From contig NZ_KI632511.1 in assembly GCF_000504285.1 (NCBI RefSeq), positions 1,237,372 to 1,301,371 on the forward strand: 64,000 bases of DNA, written 5' to 3'. This document shows positions 4,448 through 57,839 of this stretch, in pieces. Within the stretch, counting starts at the first letter, position 1, and every line of letters starts with the position of its first letter. The notes under the pieces were generated by a model. That model did not search any database and was not told the DNA's origin. It saw only the letters and a list, made by a program, of their open reading frames with translations. The stretch is from Actinospica robiniae DSM 44927. Lineage in GTDB: Bacteria > Actinomycetota > Actinomycetes > Streptomycetales > Catenulisporaceae. The translations under genes and the position numbers were made by a program.

Positions 4448-7221
<2,774 letters not shown>

Positions 7222-13020: not shown

Positions 13021-14526
13021 TTACTGAAGGGCTATGGCCGTCCAGGACACCGCCGGCAGTTCGATAGTGAGCACGCCGTCGGCGAGCGTCGCGCTCTTGT
13101 TGGCGGATGGGGTCACCCGGTGTTGATCGGTGAGCGTGTTCTTCGCGTACACATCCGAATCGGCAAGGGTGACCGCTTCGACGATGCGCTTCGACCCGAG
13201 GCTGCGCACGTCGATTGTGATCTGTGCCGCCTCCGTCTGGTCGCGGTTGACGAGGAAGAGCGCGGCCCGGTTCTCGTCCACGGTCGCGACGGCGTCGATG
13301 ACGGAGGCCTCGCCGTGGCGCGCGGTGTCGTAGCTCGGCGCCTGGATGACGGGCCGGATCACCTCGCCCGAGGCGAGCCGGCTCGTGATCGAGAACGGGT
13401 AGAACGTCGTCTGCCGCCAGGCCGGGCCGCCGGGCTCGGTCATGATCGGCGCGATCACGTTGACGAGTTGGGCGAGCGAGGCCGAGGTGACGCGGTCGCT
13501 GCGCTTGAGCAGCGTCATCAGTAGGTTGCCGACGACGACGGCGTCCGCGACCGAGTAGACGTCCTCGAGCTTGCGCGGGGCGGAGGGCCATCCGCCGTCA
13601 TCGCCGGGCTGCTCGGACTCCATGTGCTCCTTGAGGTACCAGATGTTCCACTCGTCGAAGGAGATGTTGATCTTCTTGTTCGAGCGTTTCTTGTACCCGA
13701 CATGGTCGGCGGTCGCCACGACGGTGTCGATGAAGAAGTCCATGTCGAGCGCCGAGGCGAGGAAGGAGCCGAGGTCGCCGCCGTGCTCCTGGTAGTAGGC
13801 GTGGCAGGAGATGTAGTCGACGTGATCGTAGCTGTGCTCGAGTACCGTGCGCTCCCAGTCGCCGAAGGTCGGCATGCCGGAGCCGGAGGAGCCGCAGACG
13901 ACGAGTTCGAGATCTTTATCAGCCATCTTCATCGCGGCGGCGGTGCGGGCGGCGAGCCTGCCGTAGTCCTCGGCCGTCATGAACCCGGTCTGCCACGGGC
14001 CGTCCATCTCGTTGCCCAGGCACCACATGCGCACGTTGTGCGGGTCCGGAGTGCCGTTGGCGATGCGCAGGTCCGAGAGCGCCGTGCCGGACGGGTGGTT
14101 GGCGTACTCGAGCAGATCGAGCGCGGGCAGGATGCCCCTGGTGGCGATGTTGACCGCAAGCATCAGCTCGGAGTCGGTGAGCTTGAGCCACCTGGCGAAC
14201 TCGTCCAGCCCGACCTGGTTCGACTCGAGCGAGTGCCAGGCGAGGTCGCGGCGCACCGGGCGCTTCTCGCGCGGGCCGACCGAGTCCTCCCAGCGGAAGC
14301 CGGAGACGAAGTTGCCGCCGGGGTAGCGGACGGTCGTACTGCCGAGCTCTTTGACGAGCTCGACGACGTCCACGCGGAACCCGTCCTCGTTCGCGCTCAG
14401 GTGTCCCGGCTCGTAGAGCCCGTTGTACACGCAGCGGCCGAGGTGCTCGACGAACGAGCCGAAGGTGCGGCGCCGGACAGGGGCGATGACGGCGCGTCGG
14501 TCGAGTGCGATGTGGGCGCGGGGCAA
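13021..14526 (-). CDS. GH51 alpha-L-arabinofuranosidase (intracellular)
   Basis: 501 residues, no signal peptide. It releases alpha-L-arabinofuranose from arabino-oligosaccharides in the cytoplasm. The acid/base Glu is in WCLGNEMDG (residue 173) and the nucleophile Glu in ISFDEWN (residue 292); the N-terminal TFGSFVEHLGRCVYNGLY block and the C-terminal beta domain complete a full-length GH51. The start is a TTG at 14526 with GAGGAAGGA 8 bases upstream, and MPRAHIALDRR matches GH51 N-termini. It is the second gene of an operon with the ThuA-like gene (56-base gap) behind TTGCGCAA operators. Confidence 0.95.
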   Translation of the reverse strand: MPRAHIALDRRAVIAPVRRRTFGSFVEHLGRCVYNGLYEPGHLSANEDGFRVDVVELVKELGSTTVRYPGGNFVSGFRWEDSVGPREKRPVRRDLAWHSLESNQVGLDEFARWLKLTDSELMLAVNIATRGILPALDLLEYANHPSGTALSDLRIANGTPDPHNVRMWCLGNEMDGPWQTGFMTAEDYGRLAARTAAAMKMADKDLELVVCGSSGSGMPTFGDWERTVLEHSYDHVDYISCHAYYQEHGGDLGSFLASALDMDFFIDTVVATADHVGYKKRSNKKINISFDEWNIWYLKEHMESEQPGDDGGWPSAPRKLEDVYSVADAVVVGNLLMTLLKRSDRVTSASLAQLVNVIAPIMTEPGGPAWRQTTFYPFSITSRLASGEVIRPVIQAPSYDTARHGEASVIDAVATVDENRAALFLVNRDQTEAAQITIDVRSLGSKRIVEAVTLADSDVYAKNTLTDQHRVTPSANKSATLADGVLTIELPAVSWTAIALQ

Positions 14527-14582: not shown

Positions 14583-15251
14583 TCAGCGGCTGGCCCAGAG
14601 CAGTCCGCGTTCGACGATGGTGCGGATCTCGGGTATCTCCAGCGTCGGCGCATAGTGGCCGGGGGCGCACCCGAAGACACGGCCGGCTCCCCATCTACGG
14701 GTCCAGATCGCCGGGACCGTCACCGGGTCGGACCACGGGTCGCCGGCACGGGCCGGAATCGTCGTGGTGGCCAGCACGTCGTTGTAGGCGTCGGACAGCA
14801 CCCAGAACTGGTTGTCCACGACCGCGACCTGCGCGGGCAGGTCCGCGATGATCTCTCGATCGCGGGAGGCCTGGTCGCATGCGATGGAGTGCCGGTGGAT
14901 ATTGCTCGACTGGGCGACGTATCGGGCGCCGGTGAGCTGGAGATACGTCGGGGAGTTGCCGAAGGAGTCGACGATGCCTTTGTGCCAGCCGACGTATCCG
15001 GCTCCGGCCTCGACCGCGTCGCGCAGGCCGGCGATCTGGTCATATGTGGGTGAGCCCGTGGTCCAGCACTGGACGATGAGATCCGTCCTGGCCATGAGCA
15101 CGGCGTGGGTGAAGACGTCGAGGTCGTTCGACACCGCCACGACGTAACCGTGGCCTTGGAGGAACGCGATAAGGCTCCCGGCAACCCTGGCCGGGGCGTA
15201 GCCCTTCCAGCCTCCGCGCACGACGAGCACACGCTTGGGGACCGGGGACAT
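14583..15251 (-). CDS. ThuA-like domain protein (first copy)
   Basis: 222 residues. It reads KRVLVVRGGWKGYAP, LMARTDLIVQCWTTG, GAGYVGWHKGIVDSFG and a C-terminal VPAIWTRRWGAGRVFGCAPGHY, a ThuA-like fold related to class I glutamine amidotransferases but without the catalytic Cys triad. ThuA proteins accompany sugar dehydrogenases; in rhizobia ThuA/ThuB convert trehalose through a 3-keto form. It is closely similar to the protein at 43094 in the keto-sugar operon. I start at the ATG at 15251 with GGGAGAA upstream. One TTGCGCAA site lies 16 bases before the ATG, overlapping the leader, so repression by the divergent LacI protein is likely. Confidence 0.85.
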   Translation of the reverse strand: MSPVPKRVLVVRGGWKGYAPARVAGSLIAFLQGHGYVVAVSNDLDVFTHAVLMARTDLIVQCWTTGSPTYDQIAGLRDAVEAGAGYVGWHKGIVDSFGNSPTYLQLTGARYVAQSSNIHRHSIACDQASRDREIIADLPAQVAVVDNQFWVLSDAYNDVLATTTIPARAGDPWSDPVTVPAIWTRRWGAGRVFGCAPGHYAPTLEIPEIRTIVERGLLWASR

Positions 15252-15266
15252 CGCTTCTCCCATATC

Positions 15267-15274
15267 TTGCGCAA
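15267..15274. promoter_or_regulatory. TTGCGCAA operator (thuA-GH51 side)
   Basis: Perfect 8-bp palindrome just before the thuA-like ribosome-binding site, 104 bases from its partner at 15371. Candidate site for the divergent LacI-family protein. Confidence 0.65.
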
Positions 15275-15370
15275 CTCTGAGGCCGGCTGCGGTCGGGCGC
15301 GAAGGTGGCTCGCGCAGGGACAGGCTTGGAACGATACAGCCGCCGCGGAGAGTCAGGCCAGGGGGTAAAG

Positions 15371-15378
15371 TTGCGCAA
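15371..15378. promoter_or_regulatory. TTGCGCAA operator (lacI side), overlapping a likely -35 box
   Basis: AAAG-TTGCGCAA-CAA lies 29 bases upstream of the lacI ATG. TTGCGC (15371-15376), an 18-base spacer and CATACT (15395-15400) form a plausible promoter whose start would be at the ATG at 15407, so binding would block the -35 contact. Confidence 0.6.
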
Positions 15379-15406
15379 CAAATGCCGCGCGCTGCATACT
15401 CGCGGC

Positions 15407-16471
15407 ATGACGCAGCGCGCATGGCGCAGACCGCCTGGATCGCCGACGCTCACCCAGATCGCCCGAGCCGCGGACGTGCCGGTGCCGGTGGTCTCGAAGG
15501 TGCTCAACGGGCGCAGCGACGTCTCGGCGTCGGTGCGCGAGTCCGTCGCCGAGCAACTCCGGCTCGCCGGTTACACCCCGGCCCCCGTGAAAGCTTCCGC
15601 GCCGGCCGCGCTGCTCGACCTCGTGGTCTCGGCCGTGGAAGGCACCTGGGCGAACGTCATGCTCTCCGGGATCGAGGGCGCGGCGGCGGAGACCGGCCTC
15701 GACGTGGTCGTCGTGCTCGCGCGCGAGGGCGTGCCGGAGGAACGCGACTGGGTCCAGCGCCTGATCGACCGCGGCAGCAGGGGCGCGGTGCTCGCCCTGG
15801 TCGCGCCGACCGCCGCCGAATACCGCCGGCTGCGGGCGGGCGGCGTTCAGCTGGTCGCCCTCGACCCGCACAAACCGATCTCCGGCGCGATCCCGACCGT
15901 GGGTGCGAGCCATTGGACCGGCGGCAGGCAGGCCGCGGAGCATCTGATCGCCCTGGGGCACGGCCGTTTCGCGGTCGTCGCGGGAACGCCCCGCCACCAG
16001 TACAGCCAGGCCCGGGTCGACGGATTCCGCTCGGCGCTCATCGCCCACGGCCTGGCCGGCGACACACTCGAGGTGGGTTACGGCGACTGGCGCCGCAGCG
16101 GAGCGGCCGAGGCCGCGCGGGCCCTGCTCGACCAGCCGGACCGGCCGACCGCGATCTTCGCCTGTTCCGACCGGATGGCGCTCGGCGTCTTCGACGCGGC
16201 CGTCGAGCGGGGCCTGCGGGTCCCGGGCGATCTGAGCGTCGTCGGGTTCGACGACCTCCCCGAGGCGCGCTGGCTCAGCCCCGGGCTGACCACGGTCCGC
16301 CAGCCGGTCCGCGAGATGGCCGAACTGGCCGCCCGTACGCTGCTGCGTCTGATCGACGGGGAGCAGCTCCAGGTACCCCGGGTCGAACTACAGACCCGGC
16401 TGATCGAAAGGGGGAGCACCTGCGCCCACCGCGTAAGCACAGGTGCTCCCGGGACGGATCCGGGCCGCTGA
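15407..16471 (+). CDS. LacI-family transcriptional regulator (proposed TTGCGCAA-binding repressor)
   Basis: 354 residues. The N-terminal helix-turn-helix reads TLTQIARAADVPVPVVSKVLNGRSDVSASVRESVAEQL, followed by the hinge helix and a periplasmic-binding-protein-like effector domain (LDLVVSAVEGTWANVMLSGIE, ACSDRMALGVFDAA, VVGFDDLPEARWLSPGLTTVRQP). It is divergent from the thuA-GH51 operon. I use the ATG at 15407; no Shine-Dalgarno is present and the promoter suggests a leaderless mRNA. A TTGCGCAA pair sits in its promoter and the same pair recurs at the operon starting at 40896 and at the GH93 gene, so these are its likely regulon. The ligand is probably an arabinose-containing oligosaccharide or a product of it (inference). 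Confidence 0.92.
   Translation: MTQRAWRRPPGSPTLTQIARAADVPVPVVSKVLNGRSDVSASVRESVAEQLRLAGYTPAPVKASAPAALLDLVVSAVEGTWANVMLSGIEGAAAETGLDVVVVLAREGVPEERDWVQRLIDRGSRGAVLALVAPTAAEYRRLRAGGVQLVALDPHKPISGAIPTVGASHWTGGRQAAEHLIALGHGRFAVVAGTPRHQYSQARVDGFRSALIAHGLAGDTLEVGYGDWRRSGAAEAARALLDQPDRPTAIFACSDRMALGVFDAAVERGLRVPGDLSVVGFDDLPEARWLSPGLTTVRQPVREMAELAARTLLRLIDGEQLQVPRVELQTRLIERGSTCAHRVSTGAPGTDPGR
16412..16450. terminator. Hairpin at the 3' end of lacI
   Basis: Arms GGGAGCACCTG (16412-16422) and CAGGTGCTCCC (16440-16450) pair perfectly. It lies inside the last codons of the LacI frame, between convergent genes. Confidence 0.55.
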
Positions 16472-40783: not shown

Positions 40784-40791
40784 TTGCGCAA
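40784..40791. promoter_or_regulatory. TTGCGCAA operator, distal site of the keto-sugar operon
   Basis: AGT-TTGCGCAA-CTT, 86 bases centre to centre from the proximal site. Confidence 0.65.
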
Positions 40792-40869
40792 CTTTTGACT
40801 CTGTTGCTCGAGTGACCGCCGTTGTATGGTCTCCGTACTTCAGCAGATTCTTCCACTGGCTACAAAAAG

Positions 40870-40877
40870 TTGCGCAA
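40870..40877. promoter_or_regulatory. TTGCGCAA operator, proximal site of the keto-sugar operon
   Basis: AAG-TTGCGCAA-AGT, ending 18 bases before the first ATG of the operon. Confidence 0.65.
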
Positions 40878-40895: not shown

Positions 40896-42077
40896 ATGTC
40901 GACCCTCCGCATCGGCCTCGTCGGCCACGGCTTCATGGGGCGGATTCACTCCCATGCCTGGCAGACCGTGAGCCGGGCGTTCGATCTTCCGCTGGACCTG
41001 GAGCAGACCGCGCTCGCCGGCCGGGACGCCGACCGTGTCGAGCGAGCCGCGAGAAGCTGGGGCTGGGCGTCCGCAGAGACGGATTGGCGCCGCCTCGTCG
41101 AACGCGATGACATCGATCTGATCGACATCACGACCCCGGGTGCCCTGCACGTCGAGATCGCTCTGGCCGCATTGGCCGCCGGCAAGCACGTGCTCTGCGA
41201 GAAGCCGCTGGCGAACACACTCGCGGAGGCCGAACGGATGACGGCCGCCGCGGAATCCGCTGCCCGGCAAGGGATCCGATCCATGGTCGGGTTCAACTAC
41301 CGACGCACCCCCGCCCTCAGCCTCGCTCGCGACATGGTGGCCGAAGGCCGACTCGGCGAGATCAGGCATGTGCGAGCGCTGTACCTGCAGGACTGGATCA
41401 ACGATCCGGACTTCCCGCTGGTCTGGCGTCTGCGCAAGGAGGAGGCGGGATCCGGGGCACTCGGCGACCTGGGGGCACACCTGATCGACCTCGCCGCCTT
41501 TCTCACCGGCCAGCGCATCAGTGGCCTGAGTGCGCTGACGCGCACGTTCATCGACGAGCGACCCCTGGCGGCATCATCCTCCGGCCTCGCCGGGGTCGGG
41601 CAGGCTGAGCGCGGGCGCGTGAGCGTGGACGACGCGGCGGTGTTCTTCGCTACCTGCGAAGGCGGAGCGATCGCGACCTTCGAGGCCACCCGATTCGCCC
41701 CCGGACGCAAGAACGCCATGCGTATCGAGCTCAACGGGTCGAAGGGCAGCGTGGCCTTCGACTTCGAGAGCATGAACGAGCTGCAGTACTACGACGCCAC
41801 CGCGGTGAGCACGCACGCGGGCTTCGCCCGGATCCTCGCGACCGAACCGCAGCATCCGTACATGGAGGCGTGGTGGCCCCCGGGCCACGGCCTGGGCTAC
41901 GACCACACGTTCACCAACCAGATGCGCGATCTGGTGATGGCGATCGCGAGCGGCGAGCCTCCCACACCCTCGTTCGCCGACGGGCTCTACGTACAGCGCG
42001 TGCTGAACGCCGTGGAGACGAGCGCGCAGTCGGGTTCCGCCTGGGAACCCGTCGCGAACAAGGAGGAGACGTCATGA
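40896..42077 (+). CDS. Gfo/Idh/MocA-family oxidoreductase (first)
   Basis: 393 residues. Rossmann motif GLVGHGFMGRIHSHAW, then DIDLIDITTPGALHVEIALAALAAGKHVLCEKPLANTLAEAE with the EKP motif that contacts cofactor and substrate, and a C-terminal sheet domain with GDLGAHLIDLAAFLTG. These enzymes oxidise or reduce sugars, often at C3, with bound NAD(P). ATG at 40896; the upstream part of the open frame covers the operators and is not translated. First gene of a five-gene operon; its stop overlaps the next ATG. Confidence 0.92.
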   Translation: MSTLRIGLVGHGFMGRIHSHAWQTVSRAFDLPLDLEQTALAGRDADRVERAARSWGWASAETDWRRLVERDDIDLIDITTPGALHVEIALAALAAGKHVLCEKPLANTLAEAERMTAAAESAARQGIRSMVGFNYRRTPALSLARDMVAEGRLGEIRHVRALYLQDWINDPDFPLVWRLRKEEAGSGALGDLGAHLIDLAAFLTGQRISGLSALTRTFIDERPLAASSSGLAGVGQAERGRVSVDDAAVFFATCEGGAIATFEATRFAPGRKNAMRIELNGSKGSVAFDFESMNELQYYDATAVSTHAGFARILATEPQHPYMEAWWPPGHGLGYDHTFTNQMRDLVMAIASGEPPTPSFADGLYVQRVLNAVETSAQSGSAWEPVANKEETS

Positions 42078-43093: not shown

Positions 43094-43762
43094 ATGGCTC
43101 AGCCGAAGAAGCACGCCCTCATCGTGCGCGGCGGGTGGTCGGGGCATGCCCCGGTCGAGGCGACCGCGCTGTTCATCCCGTTCCTCGAGGAGCACGGCTA
43201 CGACGTAGCCGTATCCGATGAGCTCGAGGTATACGCGGACACCGACGTCATGGCGCGCACGGATCTGATCCTGCAGTGCTGGACGACCGGCTCGCTCACT
43301 CCGGAGCAGCTGCTCGGTCTGCGCACCGCAGTCGAGTCCGGCGCGGGATTCGCCGGCTGGCACGGCGGCATCGTGGACGCGTTCCGCGCCACGCCCGAAT
43401 ACCTGCACATCACCGGCGGACAGTTCGCCGCGCACCCGTGCGACATCCACGAATACCCGATCGATCTCGTGCCGGCCCGCACCGAGCACGAGATCGTCCG
43501 TGGCCTGCCCGAGACCTTCACCGTCGAGGACGAGCAGTACTGGGTGCTGTCAGACCCCGGCAACGACGTGCTGGCCACCACCACCATCCCGGCGCGCGAC
43601 GGCGACCGGTGGCCGGGGCCGGTCACCGTCCCGGCGATCTGGACCCGCGGGTGGGGATCGGGTCGGATCTTCGTGTGCACGCCGGGCCATCACCTTCCGA
43701 CGCTGGAACGCCCAGAGATCCGAACCGTGGTCGAAAGGGGCCTGCTGTGGGCGAGCCGTTGA
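43094..43762 (+). CDS. ThuA-like domain protein (second copy)
   Basis: 222 residues, same length and order of blocks as the protein at 14583: KKHALIVRGGWSGHAP, VMARTDLILQCWTTGSL, GAGFAGWHGGIVDAFRATPEYL, DIHEYPIDLV and VPAIWTRGWGSGRIFVCTPGHH, ending TVVERGLLWASR like the first. Here the HGG and HEYPI residues usual for ThuA are kept, while the first copy has HKG and HRHSI. Probable partner of the dehydrogenases in keto-sugar turnover. Its 3' end overlaps the next gene by 16 bases. Confidence 0.88.
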   Translation: MAQPKKHALIVRGGWSGHAPVEATALFIPFLEEHGYDVAVSDELEVYADTDVMARTDLILQCWTTGSLTPEQLLGLRTAVESGAGFAGWHGGIVDAFRATPEYLHITGGQFAAHPCDIHEYPIDLVPARTEHEIVRGLPETFTVEDEQYWVLSDPGNDVLATTTIPARDGDRWPGPVTVPAIWTRGWGSGRIFVCTPGHHLPTLERPEIRTVVERGLLWASR

Positions 43763-44832
43763 ACGTCGGCGTGATCGGCGCGGGAAACATCAGCGGCGCC
43801 TACCTCCGGACACTCGAGACCTTGCCGCTCCTGCGGGTCGCCGCGATCGCCGACCGGGATCCGCGGCGCGCGGCGGCCGCGGTGGCGCAGGTCCCGGGCG
43901 CGCGAGCAGCAACGCCCGAGGACATTCTCGGCGACAGCGACATCGACATCGTGCTGAACCTGACGCCGCCCGCAGCCCATGCACAGATCGCGCTCGCCGC
44001 GATCGCGGCCGGCAAGCACGTCTACGGGGAGAAACCGCTCGCAGCGAGCCGGTCCGAGGCGGCAGAGATCTGCGACGCGGCGGTCAAGGCCCGGCTACGC
44101 GTCGGATGCGCGCCGGACACGGTGCTGGGCACCGGTATCCAGACCGCCCGCGCGAGCATCGAGCAGGGCCTGATCGGGACACCGACCTCGGCCATCGCGG
44201 TCTTCACGTGCTTCGGCCACGAGCGGTGGCACCCGGACCCCGAGTTCTACTACCAGCCCGGCGGCGGACCCCTGCTCGATATGGGCCCGTACTACCTGTC
44301 CGCGCTCGTCCACATGCTGGGTCCGGTGAGATCCATAACCGGCGCCGCAAGCCGACCCCGGCCGGAGCGAACCATCGCCTCCGGACCGCGTGCGGGCACG
44401 ACGTTCCCGTCCAGCATCGACACGCACGTCACCGCCGTTCTCGAACACGAGAGCGGAGCGCTCACGACGCTGGTCATGAGCTTCGACGTGTTGGCCTCCC
44501 GGGCTTCCAACATCGAGGTGCACGGCACCGGCGGATCGCTCGTCGTCCCGGACCCGAACCATTTCGACGGCGAAGTGCTGCTGGCCTCTCCCGGAGTCAG
44601 CGGATGGCAGGCATTACCTCCGTCCGCCGGGTACGTCGAAGCGGCCAGGGGATACGGGCTGGCCGAAATGGCTCAGTCCATCGGCGAGGACCGCGCTCAC
44701 CGCTGCTCCGCCGACCTGGCGTACCACGTACTCGACTGCGCGCACACCCTTCTGCAGGCATCACAGGAGCACACGACGCTCGACGTGACAAGCCGCTGCG
44801 ACGTACCGCCGCTGGTACCACTGAGCGGCTGA
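43747..44832 (+). CDS. Gfo/Idh/MocA-family oxidoreductase (second)
   Basis: 361 residues. NVGVIGAGNISGAYLRTLE is the dinucleotide motif, GKHVYGEKPLAASRSEAAEICDAA the EKP block, and GGGPLLDMGPYYLSALVHMLGP the C-terminal domain start with the usual metal-free active-site residues. It is only distantly related to the first dehydrogenase and is of the shorter type, so the two probably use different substrates or run opposite half-reactions (oxidation before, reduction after cleavage). GTG at 43747 with AAAGGGG upstream, overlapping the thuA-like gene. Confidence 0.9.
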   Translation: MGEPLNVGVIGAGNISGAYLRTLETLPLLRVAAIADRDPRRAAAAVAQVPGARAATPEDILGDSDIDIVLNLTPPAAHAQIALAAIAAGKHVYGEKPLAASRSEAAEICDAAVKARLRVGCAPDTVLGTGIQTARASIEQGLIGTPTSAIAVFTCFGHERWHPDPEFYYQPGGGPLLDMGPYYLSALVHMLGPVRSITGAASRPRPERTIASGPRAGTTFPSSIDTHVTAVLEHESGALTTLVMSFDVLASRASNIEVHGTGGSLVVPDPNHFDGEVLLASPGVSGWQALPPSAGYVEAARGYGLAEMAQSIGEDRAHRCSADLAYHVLDCAHTLLQASQEHTTLDVTSRCDVPPLVPLSG

Positions 44833-44886: not shown

Positions 44887-46191
44887 ATGATGAAAAGATC
44901 ACGCCGGGCGACGGCTGTCGCCATCGGCTTGGGCATGGCATTGGCCGCCACCGGCTGTGCCGGCAGCAGCGGCGGCGGCAGCGACAACGGCGGCAGGTCG
45001 TCCGGCGGCCAGGTCACGTTGACGTTCTGGGAGAACGCGACGACCGGGCCGGGCGCACAGTACTTCCAGGACGCCGCGAAGGACTACCACGCGCTGCACC
45101 CGAACGTCACGATCAAGATCCAGGCGATCCAGAACGAGGACCTCGACGGAAAGCTGCAGACCGCGCTCAACTCGAACTCGATGCCGGACATCTTCCTGCA
45201 GCGCGGCGGCGGCAAGATGCAGGCCATGGTCGACGCCGGCCAGATCCAGCCGCTGAACCTCACCGCGACGGACAAGGCGAACGCGAGCGCCGCGGCGGTC
45301 GCGGGCAACACGATCGACGGCCAGGTTTACGCGATGCCGACGGACACCCAGCCCGAGGGCATCTACTACAGCAAGAATCTGTTCCAGCAAGCCGGCATCA
45401 CCGCGACGCCGACGACGATCGACGAGCTCGAAGCCGACGTGGCGAAGCTCAAGAAGATCAACGTCGCGCCGATCGCGGTCGGCGCGAAGGACGCCTGGCC
45501 TGCCGCGCACTGGTACTACAACTTCGCCCTGCGCGAGTGCAGCCAGAACACGATGACGAGCACGGCCAAGACGCTCAAGTTCACCGACCCGTGCTGGACC
45601 AAGGCTGGGGACGACCTGGCCACGTTCCTGAAGGTCGACCCGTTCGAGAAGGGCTTCCTGACGACCTCCTCACAGCAGGGCGCCGGCTCCTCGGCGGGCA
45701 TGATCGCCAACCACAAGGCGGGCATGGAGCTCATGGGCACCTGGGACCCCGGCGTGATCGCCAGCCTGACCCCGAACCAGAAGGCGCTGCCCGACCTGGG
45801 CTGGTTCCCCTTCCCCGCCGTGCCCGGAGGCCAGGGCGACCCCGGCGCTCTGATGGGCGGCGGAGGCGGCTACTCGCTCTCCAAGAACGCGCCGAAGGAG
45901 GCCTTCGGCTTCCTCGAGTTCCTGGTGACCAAGGACCAGCAGGAGGCCTACGCCAAGGCGTTCGACACGATTCCGGTGAACTCCGAGGCGCAGAGCGCCG
46001 TCACCGACTCTTATAACATCTCGGCGCTGCAGGCGTTCAACAAAGCGGCCTACACCATTCAGTTCCTTGACACCGAGTACGGCCAGAACGTCGGTAACGC
46101 CATGAACACCGCCGTCGTGGCTCTGATGGCCGGCCAGGGCGATGCCGCAGGCATCGTCTCGGCCACCAACGCCGCCGCCGCGAAGGGCTGA
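44887..46191 (+). CDS. Sugar-binding lipoprotein of an ABC importer, no permeases nearby
   Basis: 434 residues, family 1 solute-binding protein. Lipobox in ALAATGCAGSSG; mature part begins QVTLTFWENATTGPGAQYFQDAAKDYHALHPNVTIKI, with DIFLQRGGGKMQAM and GMELMGTWDPGVIASL. ATG at 44887 after AGGGAGC. It is 54 bases after the second dehydrogenase and is followed by a strong terminator, so the operon ends without permeases. It could dock on the permeases at 31041-32773 or on others outside the window. Confidence 0.92.
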   Translation: MMKRSRRATAVAIGLGMALAATGCAGSSGGGSDNGGRSSGGQVTLTFWENATTGPGAQYFQDAAKDYHALHPNVTIKIQAIQNEDLDGKLQTALNSNSMPDIFLQRGGGKMQAMVDAGQIQPLNLTATDKANASAAAVAGNTIDGQVYAMPTDTQPEGIYYSKNLFQQAGITATPTTIDELEADVAKLKKINVAPIAVGAKDAWPAAHWYYNFALRECSQNTMTSTAKTLKFTDPCWTKAGDDLATFLKVDPFEKGFLTTSSQQGAGSSAGMIANHKAGMELMGTWDPGVIASLTPNQKALPDLGWFPFPAVPGGQGDPGALMGGGGGYSLSKNAPKEAFGFLEFLVTKDQQEAYAKAFDTIPVNSEAQSAVTDSYNISALQAFNKAAYTIQFLDTEYGQNVGNAMNTAVVALMAGQGDAAGIVSATNAAAAKG

Positions 46192-46269: not shown

Positions 46270-47403
46270 CTACCCCTGTGAACGCGGCGGGGCCGTCGAT
46301 GTTCGAACGACCAGGCTCGGCGCGACCGTCAGCCGCGGCGCGGTCGACGCCGACGGCCGTGCGCCCGGGCCCGTCGCGCGCACGATTTCCATGAGCGTCG
46401 AGAGGGCGTGTCGGCCGAGTTCGTCGAAGGCCTGCCGGACGGTGGTGAGAGGCGGGCCGATGAACTCCGCCTCGGGGATGTCGTCGAACCCGACCACGCT
46501 CACGTCCTCCGGCACGCGCACACCCGCCTGCTGGAACGCGCGGACGAGCCCGAGTGCGGCGTGGTCGTTGGCGCAGAAGACCGCGGTGATCGGATCGGCG
46601 TCCTCGTGGATCCGCGGCACCAGTTCACGGCCGAGCGCGTAGCCCGAGCGGGCGGACCAGTCGCCTCCGTACACCGGCTCGGCGACCGGCGCACCACGCT
46701 CGAGCAGGGCGCGCCGCCACCCGGCTTCACGCTCCTGCGCCTCGAGCCACAGCCGGGGACCGGCGACGTGGTGAACGGTGCGATGCCCGAGGTCGAGGAG
46801 GAACGAGGTGGCCTGCGCGGCACCGGCTTCGTTGTCGACGGCCGCCGAGGCCACGCCGGCCTGGGTACCGCAGCCGACCGCGACCAACGGGATGTCCGAG
46901 GGCACCTGGCCGAGCGCGCGCACGGCGCTCGACTGCGGAGCTATCACGATCAGCCCTTCCACAGCCTGGTCGCGCAGCCGGTCCACGGCGTCGAGCACCG
47001 CCCGCCGGTCCAACGAGGAGAGCGCGGCGACCATGACGAAATAGTCGAGGTCTTTGGCGGCCTGCTCGATCCCGTACAGCATCGAGGCCGGCCCGTAGAG
47101 CGTCGTGTTGAAGCTGACCACGCCGAGGGTCCGGGACTTCCTCGTGACGAGTGCACGCGCGGCCACGTTCGGCCGATAGCCCATCTCCTTGATGACCTCG
47201 AGCACGCGATCGCGGGTGGCCGGCTTCACGTTGGGGTGGTCGTTCAGGACCCTCGAGACGGTCTGGTGCGAGACGCCCGCGAAGCGCGCCACGTCCGCCA
47301 TCCGCGGGGCCCGTCCGTCCGGTCTTCCGCCGGCCGAGGCAGGCCGCGGACGGGCGGTGGCCCCGTTCTGGACGGACGAGGGTGCTGATTCGGGCGAAGC
47401 CAT
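46270..47403 (-). CDS. LacI-family transcriptional regulator (third)
   Basis: 377 residues. A disordered N-terminal tail of about 34 residues precedes the helix-turn-helix MADVARFAGVSHQTVSRVLNDHPNVKPATRDRVLEVIKEMGYRPNVAARAL; the effector domain reads SRTLGVVSFNTTLYGPASMLYGIEQAA and VFCANDHAALGLVRAFQQAG. The ATG at 47403 has GAGGAAGG 12 bases upstream. Its target is unclear: the TTGTTA-N4-TAACAA repeat at 27669 or a site outside the window are candidates, because no new palindrome was seen in its own promoter. Confidence 0.9.
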   Translation of the reverse strand: MASPESAPSSVQNGATARPRPASAGGRPDGRAPRMADVARFAGVSHQTVSRVLNDHPNVKPATRDRVLEVIKEMGYRPNVAARALVTRKSRTLGVVSFNTTLYGPASMLYGIEQAAKDLDYFVMVAALSSLDRRAVLDAVDRLRDQAVEGLIVIAPQSSAVRALGQVPSDIPLVAVGCGTQAGVASAAVDNEAGAAQATSFLLDLGHRTVHHVAGPRLWLEAQEREAGWRRALLERGAPVAEPVYGGDWSARSGYALGRELVPRIHEDADPITAVFCANDHAALGLVRAFQQAGVRVPEDVSVVGFDDIPEAEFIGPPLTTVRQAFDELGRHALSTLMEIVRATGPGARPSASTAPRLTVAPSLVVRTSTAPPRSQG

Positions 47404-47885
47404 GGTCGAAAGTGCCTTCCTCGCGAGGGGATGCGCTGTCGCAGTGTGGTGATGGTGATGCGGCACGAGCCCCGGACGCATCCGGGTGATGTTGTAGCGC
47501 GAGCTCCCCGGCACCGTCCAGCGTGCAGATACCCGTTTTGCCCGCCGCGAGCCGCCTATTGATGGGATGACTGTTCGCGAACGCCGCAGGACTATCGAAG
47601 CACATTTATGAAATTTCCACTATCCCCCCGTCGGCCACCCGCCCGAAGTGACCCACCGGCAGCCGACTTCACCCCAGTTGGCAGCGGATCGCGAAGACAG
47701 GCGCCTGCCTCCGCTCGTGGCGCGGCGGCTTCACTTCCTAACGGACGCCGGCCCGGCTTGGCATGTTCCCATCTGGCGATGCGCCGCGAATCAGCCGGGC
47801 TCATCCCATCACTCACGCCAGCCCTCTCCTGCTCGGCTTTGGATGTCGACGCTAACGGCCGCCATTCCTCCTCGGAGCGTGCACC
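47404..47885. other. Intergenic region between lacI and the GH62 remnant
   Basis: No gene. GAAATTTCC at 47610-47618 resembles the GAAANTTTC word without the spacer base. Confidence 0.4.
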
Positions 47886-56476: not shown

Positions 56477-56484
56477 TTGCGCAA
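56477..56484. promoter_or_regulatory. TTGCGCAA operator, distal site of GH93
   Basis: ATG-TTGCGCAA-CTT, 120 bases centre to centre from the proximal site. Confidence 0.65.
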
Positions 56485-56596
56485 CTTCTCAGCCTAGCTC
56501 CGCACTTCCCATCGATGTATCGTGCCAGTGACTACGCATTTTGGAGCGGAAGCCGCCCCGCAAGAGCCGTTTCCGCACTCCTCCAGTTCATCAAAG

Positions 56597-56604
56597 TTGC
56601 GCAA
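56597..56604. promoter_or_regulatory. TTGCGCAA operator, proximal site of GH93
   Basis: AAG-TTGCGCAA-AAA, 35 bases before the GH93 ATG. Confidence 0.65.
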
Positions 56605-56639: not shown

Positions 56640-57839
56640 ATGGAGAATAGTCGAGCAGATGATGCGGCCGAGCGCCCTGCGCGCCTGACCCGCCGGGCGT
56701 TGCTCGGGACCGGGGGCGCCGCGGTCGCGGCGCTGTCTCTGGGCGCAGCGGGGACAGCGGCTGCGGCCTCGACGAGCTCCGGCACCTCGCGGGGCGAGGC
56801 GCCTTTCGGTCCGGTCACGGTGACCGACCCGGGATCCGGCGCTTCGTACGCGCGAGCCGTACGCCTCGGCGACGGGCGGCCGGGCGGATCGCGAACGTTC
56901 CTGGCGACCTTTCAGCAGTTCGATCCGAGCAGGCCGGGCGGGTTCGAGATCTTCCGCAGCGACGACGGCGGCCACACCTGGGATCAGCGGGGCAATGTGC
57001 CCGACGACGGCGACCCCGGAAAGATCTGGCTGCAACCGTTCCTCTACGAGTTGCCGCGCGCCTTCGCCGGCCTGCCGAAAGGCGCGGTGCTGTGCGCCGG
57101 CAACGCGCTGGATTCCTCGAGCACCCGGATCGTGCTGTACGCGAGCCTCGACCGTGGCCAGAACTGGCGGTACCTGAGCACAGTGGCGGTGGGCGGCCCG
57201 CCCAACCCGACGAACGGCAACACGCCCGTATGGGAGCCGTTCCTGCTGCTGCACCGCGACCGGCTCGTCTGCTACTACTCCGACCAGCGAGACCCGAGAT
57301 ACGGACAGAAGCTGGCGCATCAGACCAGCAGGGACCTGCGCCACTGGGGCCCGGTCGTCGACGACGTCGCCAGCCCGGAGTACAGCCAGCGGCCCGGCAT
57401 GATCACCGTCGCACAGGTGCATCGCAACCTTTGGATCACGACCTACGAGTTCGGCGTCTCGGACACCTACTACCCCGTGCGCTACAAGCTCGCCCCGGAC
57501 CCGGAGTCCTTCGGCTCCTCCCCCGCCCTGGAACTCCTCGACCAAGACGGATACGCCCCGTCCGCCGCCCCGACCGTGACCTGGTCGGACTCCGGCGGCC
57601 CGCACGGCACCATCATCTTGAGCGCCAACAGCGACCAGGACTTCTTCACCAACTCCGCCCTCGGCGATCCGGGCAGGTGGACCCGGTTGTCTTCCCCGAT
57701 GCCGAGGGGCTACAGCCGATACACCATCCCGCTGACCGACTCGGGATCGTGGCACCAGCCCGGCCTCGTCTTCGTCGTGACCGGCGCACCCTACGCCGAG
57801 GACGCGCCGATCCAGGCGGGCGTCATACGGCTGGGCTGA
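56640..57839 (+). CDS. Tat-exported GH93-type exo-alpha-1,5-L-arabinanase (BNR propeller)
   Basis: 399 residues. A twin-arginine signal (ARLTRRALLGTGGAAVAALSLGAAGTAAAAS) suggests folded export. The propeller has FEIFRSDDGGHTWDQRGNVP, IWLQPFLYELPRAFAGLPKGAVLCAGNAL, RIVLYASLDRGQNWRYLS and NTPVWEPFLLLHRDRLVCYYSDQRDPRYGQKLAHQTS, the pattern of GH93 exo-arabinanases and related sialidase-fold proteins. It would release arabinobiose from the chain ends of arabinan. ATG at 56640 with AGGAG 4 bases before. A sialidase role is less likely because the Arg triad context and neighbours do not fit. Confidence 0.85.
   Translation: MENSRADDAAERPARLTRRALLGTGGAAVAALSLGAAGTAAAASTSSGTSRGEAPFGPVTVTDPGSGASYARAVRLGDGRPGGSRTFLATFQQFDPSRPGGFEIFRSDDGGHTWDQRGNVPDDGDPGKIWLQPFLYELPRAFAGLPKGAVLCAGNALDSSSTRIVLYASLDRGQNWRYLSTVAVGGPPNPTNGNTPVWEPFLLLHRDRLVCYYSDQRDPRYGQKLAHQTSRDLRHWGPVVDDVASPEYSQRPGMITVAQVHRNLWITTYEFGVSDTYYPVRYKLAPDPESFGSSPALELLDQDGYAPSAAPTVTWSDSGGPHGTIILSANSDQDFFTNSALGDPGRWTRLSSPMPRGYSRYTIPLTDSGSWHQPGLVFVVTGAPYAEDAPIQAGVIRLG

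Follow-up and report, generated by a model that had tools for sequence, protein, structure and literature searches.

A paired palindrome as the probable looping operator of a LacI-family regulator of thuA-Gfo/Idh/MocA genes in actinobacteria, with local additions in Actinospica robiniae

Introduction

Among the systems closest to the one described here is the gal operon of Escherichia coli, in which two operators are located at -60.5 and +53.5, 113 bp apart, and repression is optimal at spacings of 103, 113, and 123 bp (PMC4693257). An actinobacterial LacI regulator, BxlR, is linked to xylobiose and to the operator 5'-CGAANxTTCG-3' (PMC12772271). In the LacI regulons collected in RegPrecise, sites are as a rule even palindromes with a central CG, and the spacings of tandem sites peak at 13, 22, and 32 bp (Ravcheev et al. 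2014, PMC4052901).

Here, a stretch of 64,000 nucleotides from Actinospica robiniae DSM 44927 (contig NZ_KI632511.1, positions 1,237,372 to 1,301,371), referred to as the window and numbered from its first letter, was analyzed with respect to the eight-letter palindrome TTGCGCAA and the LacI-family gene starting at 15407. Our literature search found neither a report of TTGCGCAA as a LacI operator nor a description of a LacI group of the 15407 type. We consider it likely, judging from sequence comparison, that TTGCGCAA is the invariant operator core of the 15407 repressor, that its paired operators act by looping the promoter, and that the regulon has been extended in Actinospica.

Results

The window contains exactly six copies of TTGCGCAA and no others, and all of them were found at the positions listed in an earlier note on this DNA (15267, 15371, 40784, 40870, 56477, and 56597); the start-to-start spacings of 104, 86, and 120 bp given there for the three pairs were reproduced as well. 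Shuffling of the window gave a mean of 0.56 copies (the note, assuming 68 percent GC, had put the chance figure at about 0.6 per 64 kb), and six copies were reached in none of 100 shuffles (probability of at least six copies about 2e-5), while the three-pair pattern did not arise from six random positions in 200,000 trials. The view that the sites belong to promoters and not to coding DNA is borne out, as all six are intergenic and just upstream of genes: one pair lies in the thuA1-lacI intergenic region, one before an operon of Gfo/Idh/MocA genes (op2), and one before a GH93 exo-arabinanase gene. The statement that lacI itself lies between the members of a pair was mistaken, since the pair sits in the thuA-lacI intergenic region, and the AAAG/CTTT flanks that adjoin the TTGCGCAA core had been overlooked.

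Genome-wide, the bare word was found 79 times in 9.92 Mb, which is about the chance rate, and enrichment of the bare 8-mer was thus rejected. By contrast, the 9.92 Mb genome has no more than four exact pairs with a spacing of 78-134 bp, three of them within the window, as compared to about 0.03 chance pairs expected among 79 random sites. The genome scan proposed in the earlier note hence speaks for the pairs but not for the word as such: with bare TTGCGCAA at chance level, it is the pair that constitutes the signal. The fourth pair (genome positions 1,834,196/1,834,302) is located between a duplicate of lacI, 92% identical in protein and 91% in coding sequence to the lacI at 15407, and a GH51 gene. 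Despite divergence of the two duplicated intergenic regions, each has retained its two operators, the left operon's -10 box, and the lacI promoter. The sequence AGTTGCGCAA occurs at ten places outside the four pairs, nine of which are without an A-rich flank; for the lone copy at 9,888,199, which has a GAAG flank, no partner was found within its 3 kb locus. A large island of hemicellulose degradation genes (window 13021-63714) comprises GH10, GH11, GH51, GH54, GH59, GH62, GH93, GH3, and GH36 members, many of its enzymes carrying ricin-type lectin or CBM2 modules, with an argininosuccinate synthase-like gene (4448-6049, minus strand) at its edge. This island is partly duplicated about 540 kb away (locus L031, 1844-18972), the duplicated portion including GH51-lacI, GH10, GH54, GH62, and a second LacI gene (93% identical).

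In the thuA1-lacI divergon, operator copy 1 (TTGCGCAACTCT, 15267-15278, minus strand) is an exact match located 16 bp upstream of the thuA1 start, with its AAAG-type flank facing into the pair. Operator copy 2 (AAAGTTGCGCAA, 15367-15378, plus strand), likewise an exact match, includes the hexamer TTGCGC (15371-15376), which is also the probable -35 box of lacI and is followed after 18 bp by the probable lacI -10 box CATACT (15395-15400, plus strand), a match to the consensus; this -10 arrangement after TTGCGC is common to most orthologs. The probable -10 box of the thuA1/GH51 operon, TATCGT (15331-15336, minus strand, in TGTATCGT), is located inside the pair. The first gene of this left target operon is thuA1 (14583-15251, minus strand), assigned to the ThuA domain by Pfam search, and the gene for a GH51 alpha-L-arabinofuranosidase (13021-14526, minus strand; ArfA equivalog by NCBIfam NF051901 at 684 bits, cutoff 625) probably belongs to the same operon. 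All promoter calls given here are consensus matches, not mapped transcription starts.

A comparable layout was found at the two other loci. Before op2, the upstream operator (TTGCGCAACTTT, 40784-40795, minus strand, exact match) starts 41 bp from the probable -10 box TATGGT (40825-40830, plus strand), and the downstream operator (AAAGTTGCGCAA, 40866-40877, plus strand) stands at about +33 from the inferred transcription start. The genes of op2, all on the plus strand, encode a levoglucosan-dehydrogenase-like Gfo/Idh/MocA oxidoreductase (gfo1, 40896-42077), a xylose-isomerase-like TIM-barrel protein (PF01261, 42071-43081), ThuA2 (43094-43762), a second Gfo/Idh/MocA oxidoreductase (gfo2, 43756-44832), homologs of which follow thuA in the core operon of other genera, and, probably as the last gene, an ABC sugar-binding lipoprotein (44887-46191), the last four being assigned by Pfam. 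The first of these enzymes is not an LgdA equivalog, as its NF052479 score of 364 bits lies below the equivalog cutoff of 650 bits. The gene of a second LacI protein (46270-47514), whose HTH is canonical and strong, adjoins op2, and a duplicate of it (L031, 15854-16990) is found near the second lacI divergon. At the GH93 gene, the upstream operator (TTGCGCAACTTC, 56477-56488, minus strand) and the downstream operator (AAAGTTGCGCAA, 56593-56604, plus strand) are both exact matches, and the probable -10 box TATCGT (56518-56523, plus strand) is again 41 bp from the upstream operator start. The secreted GH93 exo-arabinanase (56640-57839, plus strand) gave no Pfam match and was identified by its similarity to the solved exo-arabinanases 2w5n, 2ydt, and 3a71 in the PDB (E 2e-72 to 5e-73).

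The candidate binder of these sites, encoded at 15407-16471 (plus strand), has the architecture of the LacI/GalR family (PF00356 at 27.5 bits, cutoff 27; PF13377 at 145.5 bits), with an N-terminal HTH in a DNA-binding domain of residues 14-58 followed by a periplasmic-binding-protein-like sugar-binding core, and its nearest folds are RbsR, CelR, CcpA, and PurR. The canonical hinge-helix motif (YxPNxxARxL-like), which in this family follows the HTH and inserts into the center of the operator, is absent from all orthologs, in which the linker is variable or Arg-rich, and in the predicted structure the linker residues 60-66 have a pLDDT below 50 and form no helix. The hinge of LacI proteins may be disordered when DNA is absent. 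Moreover, several related actinobacterial LacI paralogs also have no hinge-helix motif, and the lack of this motif thus does not exclude membership in the LacI/GalR family. Many related actinobacterial LacI homologs (L145-L170) show the same lack, their linkers being rich in Arg (e.g., GYRRRG), and a larger LacI clade may be characterized by hinge loss. Additionally, no lac-type C-terminal tetramerisation helix was seen, as the protein ends shortly after the core and its last 13 residues are disordered in the model and unconserved among orthologs, which means that a loop would need dimer-dimer contacts of the GalR kind.

A GTDB scan performed by protein motif, not by DNA, yielded 22 orthologs of the 15407 protein in at least ten actinobacterial genera (Actinospica, Catenulispora, Embleya, a Propionibacteriaceae MAG, Pseudactinotalea, Occultella, Antribacter, Promicromonospora, Microbacterium, and Glycomyces). 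The scan of related genomes that the earlier note had recommended came out in favor of its proposal, an exact pair being present upstream of lacI in all 22. In 21 of the ortholog genomes the lacI pair is the only one found at a spacing of 72-102 bp, and in the remaining one, that of A. durhamensis, it has a spacing of 105 bp. Among the family relatives, two orthologs (90% and 74% identity) carry the pair, and the exact site was found at none of 25 paralog loci. Two further orthologs with the pair, one of them apparently a known Occultella, and one ortholog with a single exact site came from a sample of 395 genomes of the class; 26 more distant homologs in that sample had no site. Overall, the exact site was found at none of 51 loci of LacI paralogs with up to 49% identity. 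Homolog sequences were re-extracted by tblastn, and the conclusions do not rest on a tree. Two homologs from the same order (L155 and L158), weakly supported in the clade, have no site, and their recognition region is changed (SKVLRGGTDVS). In one Catenulispora MAG, it is op2 itself that lies divergently beside the ortholog, and the pair occupies the space between the two; no site was found at the op2 homologs of seven Catenulispora genomes without the ortholog, nor at a GH93 homolog in a genome without it. Counting against the association, A. durhamensis possesses the ortholog, yet the gene of its Gfo1 homolog (65% identical) is not preceded by a site. It is mainly this co-occurrence of the pair with the orthologs (22 of 22, as against absence at 51 of 51 paralogs) from which we infer that the 15407 protein very probably binds TTGCGCAA, as the earlier note had supposed.

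Over 52 sites, the full operator consensus is AAAGTTGC|GCAACTTT, a 16-bp palindrome in which the search itself imposed the central eight bases, the six flanking positions closest to them being 59-79% conserved; it follows the family rule of an even palindrome with a central CG. An inward-pointing, asymmetric operator was rejected as a general feature, as the inner and outer flanks match CTTT equally (2.79 versus 2.73 of 4; 52 sites). The flanks do point inward in all four Actinospica pairs, and the asymmetry is a lineage-specific departure from the symmetric site. A lacI -10 hexamer stands 16-18 bp behind the lacI-proximal TTGCGC in the majority of orthologs, so that operator and lacI -35 box coincide. 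Furthermore, all four Actinospica pairs, and the pairs of most orthologs, have a consensus promoter bracketed by both operators. Measured from the start of the upstream operator, the -10 box follows at 41-43 bp in Actinospica, Catenulispora, Embleya, and Promicromonosporaceae; for most Glycomyces and Occultella the figure is 50-53 bp, a shift of about one helical turn. As to the downstream operator, most genera have its start near +22/+23, and in Actinospica it ranges from +33 to +67. Across orthologs L086-L107, the downstream operator was seen to stay near +22/+23 while the distance from the upstream operator to the -10 box shifts by about one turn.

The pair spacings cluster at 75-77, 86-88, 97-98, and 104-106 bp, near one helical turn apart, in addition to the 86 bp of op2 and the 120 bp of GH93. 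Twelve lineage-collapsed values share a helical phase at 10.5 bp with R = 0.82 (p about 1e-4 against a uniform null, with lineages taken as independent, which they are not fully), and the values of 104-106 bp (Actinospica divergons) and 120 bp (GH93) are off the main phase by 2-3 bp in either direction. Due to this incomplete independence, the phasing is good though not decisive support for looping. Taken with the geometry of promoters bracketed by two operators, it makes it plausible that the pairs act through looping.

With regard to the genes controlled, homologs of thuA and gfo2 are found together at 19 of the 22 ortholog loci. Outside Actinospica the partner of lacI is usually thuA followed by a Gfo/Idh/MocA gene, and in the other genera the lacI/thuA-Gfo/Idh/MocA divergon is the only target found. 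Sampled neighbors of the ortholog loci are for the most part unrelated genes of the housekeeping type, e.g., those for RecA, RNA polymerase, and topoisomerase, and ABC sugar-transport genes follow lacI at some loci. Judged by this conservation, the core target is the thuA-Gfo/Idh/MocA operon and not arabinan genes, whereas GH51 and GH93, which provide the link to arabinan, are local additions in this Actinospica genome. Together with the mostly housekeeping neighbors, this makes a core response to a sugar handled by ThuA and Gfo more likely than one to arabinan, and the earlier proposal of a response to arabinan products finds no support as the core function. In Pseudactinotalea (L089 and L093) the lacI ortholog keeps the pair (97-98 bp), although neither thuA nor gfo homologs were detected next to it; in L089, an aminoglycoside-2''-adenylyltransferase-like gene lies on the divergent side and an ABC sugar-transport set after lacI.

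Discussion

From the sites, their pairing, their conservation with the regulator, the promoter positions, and the periodicity of the spacings, all of which are read from sequence, binding, repression, looping, and a sugar inducer can be proposed to act as follows. In the absence of inducer, one 15407 dimer would occupy the upstream operator, starting in this genome about 41 bp before the -10 box, and another the downstream operator at about +33 to +67. The two dimers, with the promoter between them, would probably touch, so that the short intervening DNA is looped and the promoter shut, in a manner resembling GalR at E. coli gal. At the lacI divergon, where the lacI-proximal operator is also the lacI -35 box, the same binding would repress the gene of the regulator itself. 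The ancestral target would be the thuA-Gfo/Idh/MocA operon divergent from lacI, and in the Actinospica strain the regulon would have come to include GH51 (in two copies, the divergon having been duplicated), the levoglucosan-dehydrogenase-like operon, and GH93. The inducer would most likely be a substrate or intermediate of the ThuA/Gfo pathway.

The same protein might also bind both sites without forming a loop, the upstream site hindering RNA polymerase or serving the divergent lacI promoter and the downstream site acting independently as a roadblock; in the divergon, the two sites would then simply serve two promoters. This is in line with the position of each divergon site close to one gene start, with the coincidence of the lacI-proximal site and the lacI -35 box, and with the fact that no tetramerisation helix is evident. 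We nevertheless regard it as unlikely, if worth keeping in mind, as a single promoter is bracketed by two sites at op2 and GH93 as well, neither of which is a divergon, and as the spacings shift between lineages by steps of about 10-11 bp, which independent action of the sites would not need. A role of the 15407 regulator as activator would be suggested by the upstream site at a near-constant distance before weak -35 boxes, namely 41-43 bp from operator start to -10 box in all four Actinospica promoters, the -35 hexamers of which are poor. It is quite improbable, since the second site inside the transcribed leader of every target and the other site covering the lacI -35 box both point to repression, and since Promicromonosporaceae promoters of the same layout have good -35 boxes (TTGATC-N17-TATCAA).

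Binding of TTGCGCAA by another regulator, for instance the second LacI protein of the window, is a still fainter prospect. Its gene adjoins op2 and a paralog is found near the second lacI divergon, but the pair accompanies the 15407 orthologs at 22 loci, only a few of which showed a nearby homolog of the second LacI (31-46% identity), and Pseudactinotalea has the pair even though neither a thuA nor a gfo homolog was detected next to its lacI. Finally, sites without function, present only by chance or by inheritance through duplication, would agree with the chance level of the bare 8-mer genome-wide and with the origin of one of the four pairs as a duplicate of another (coding sequences 91% identical). 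Their exact conservation in 22 loci of many families, with diverged DNA between them, effectively refutes this explanation, and only about 0.03 chance pairs are expected in this genome.

Looping of the promoter by the 15407 repressor is thus the reading we prefer, and a broader one may be put forward tentatively, although we hold it to be doubtful: the regulators could form a hinge-less actinobacterial LacI subfamily that obligatorily loops via two long-spaced, phased operators, one of which doubles as the -35 box of the regulator gene, that senses an intermediate of the ThuA/Gfo pathway (3-keto-sugar type), and that has been re-used in Actinospica for arabinan-degrading enzymes. The putative regulator-operator assignment equips this LacI group with a site defined precisely to 16 bp and with a looping-type geometry that is conserved, and knowing the inducer would give a lead to the substrate on which the products of the thuA-Gfo/Idh/MocA genes act. 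Moreover, the near-whole-turn changes in spacing across genera amount to a phasing experiment done by nature, one in which the looping protein would be a LacI member without tetramerisation helix or recognizable hinge motif, and the Actinospica strain is a clear example, within one genus, of hemicellulose enzymes being drawn into a local regulon.

In comparison with described systems, op2 resembles the levoglucosan genes lgdA-lgdB1-lgdB2-lgdC (PMC7676230, PMC10066097) in combining an LgdA-like Gfo/Idh/MocA protein, a PF01261 protein, and a second Gfo/Idh/MocA protein. It differs from that pathway in the low LgdA-like score (364 versus the cutoff of 650) and in carrying ThuA, no mention of which was found in the levoglucosan paper searched for it. 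Like BxlR, the 15407 protein is an actinomycete LacI-family regulator that would control hemicellulose genes, whereas operator word and core target differ. The even palindrome with central CG, autoregulation (predicted here), a local regulon, and sites upstream of start codons are shared with the LacI regulons of RegPrecise (Ravcheev et al. 2014, PMC4052901); in contrast to the tandem spacings reported there, pairs of 75-120 bp are conserved here in one ortholog group. The closest parallel in geometry is GalR at gal, a member of the same LacI/GalR family with two 16-bp operators flanking the promoter about 8-11 helical turns apart, where phasing matters (PMC4693257). Unlike in gal, the operator here is an even palindrome with a central CG, the -35 box of the divergent lacI is itself an operator, and the operator spacing varies between lineages by approximately whole turns. 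Taken all together, this LacI regulon is new but of a known type, and its long, phased operator pair is unusual.
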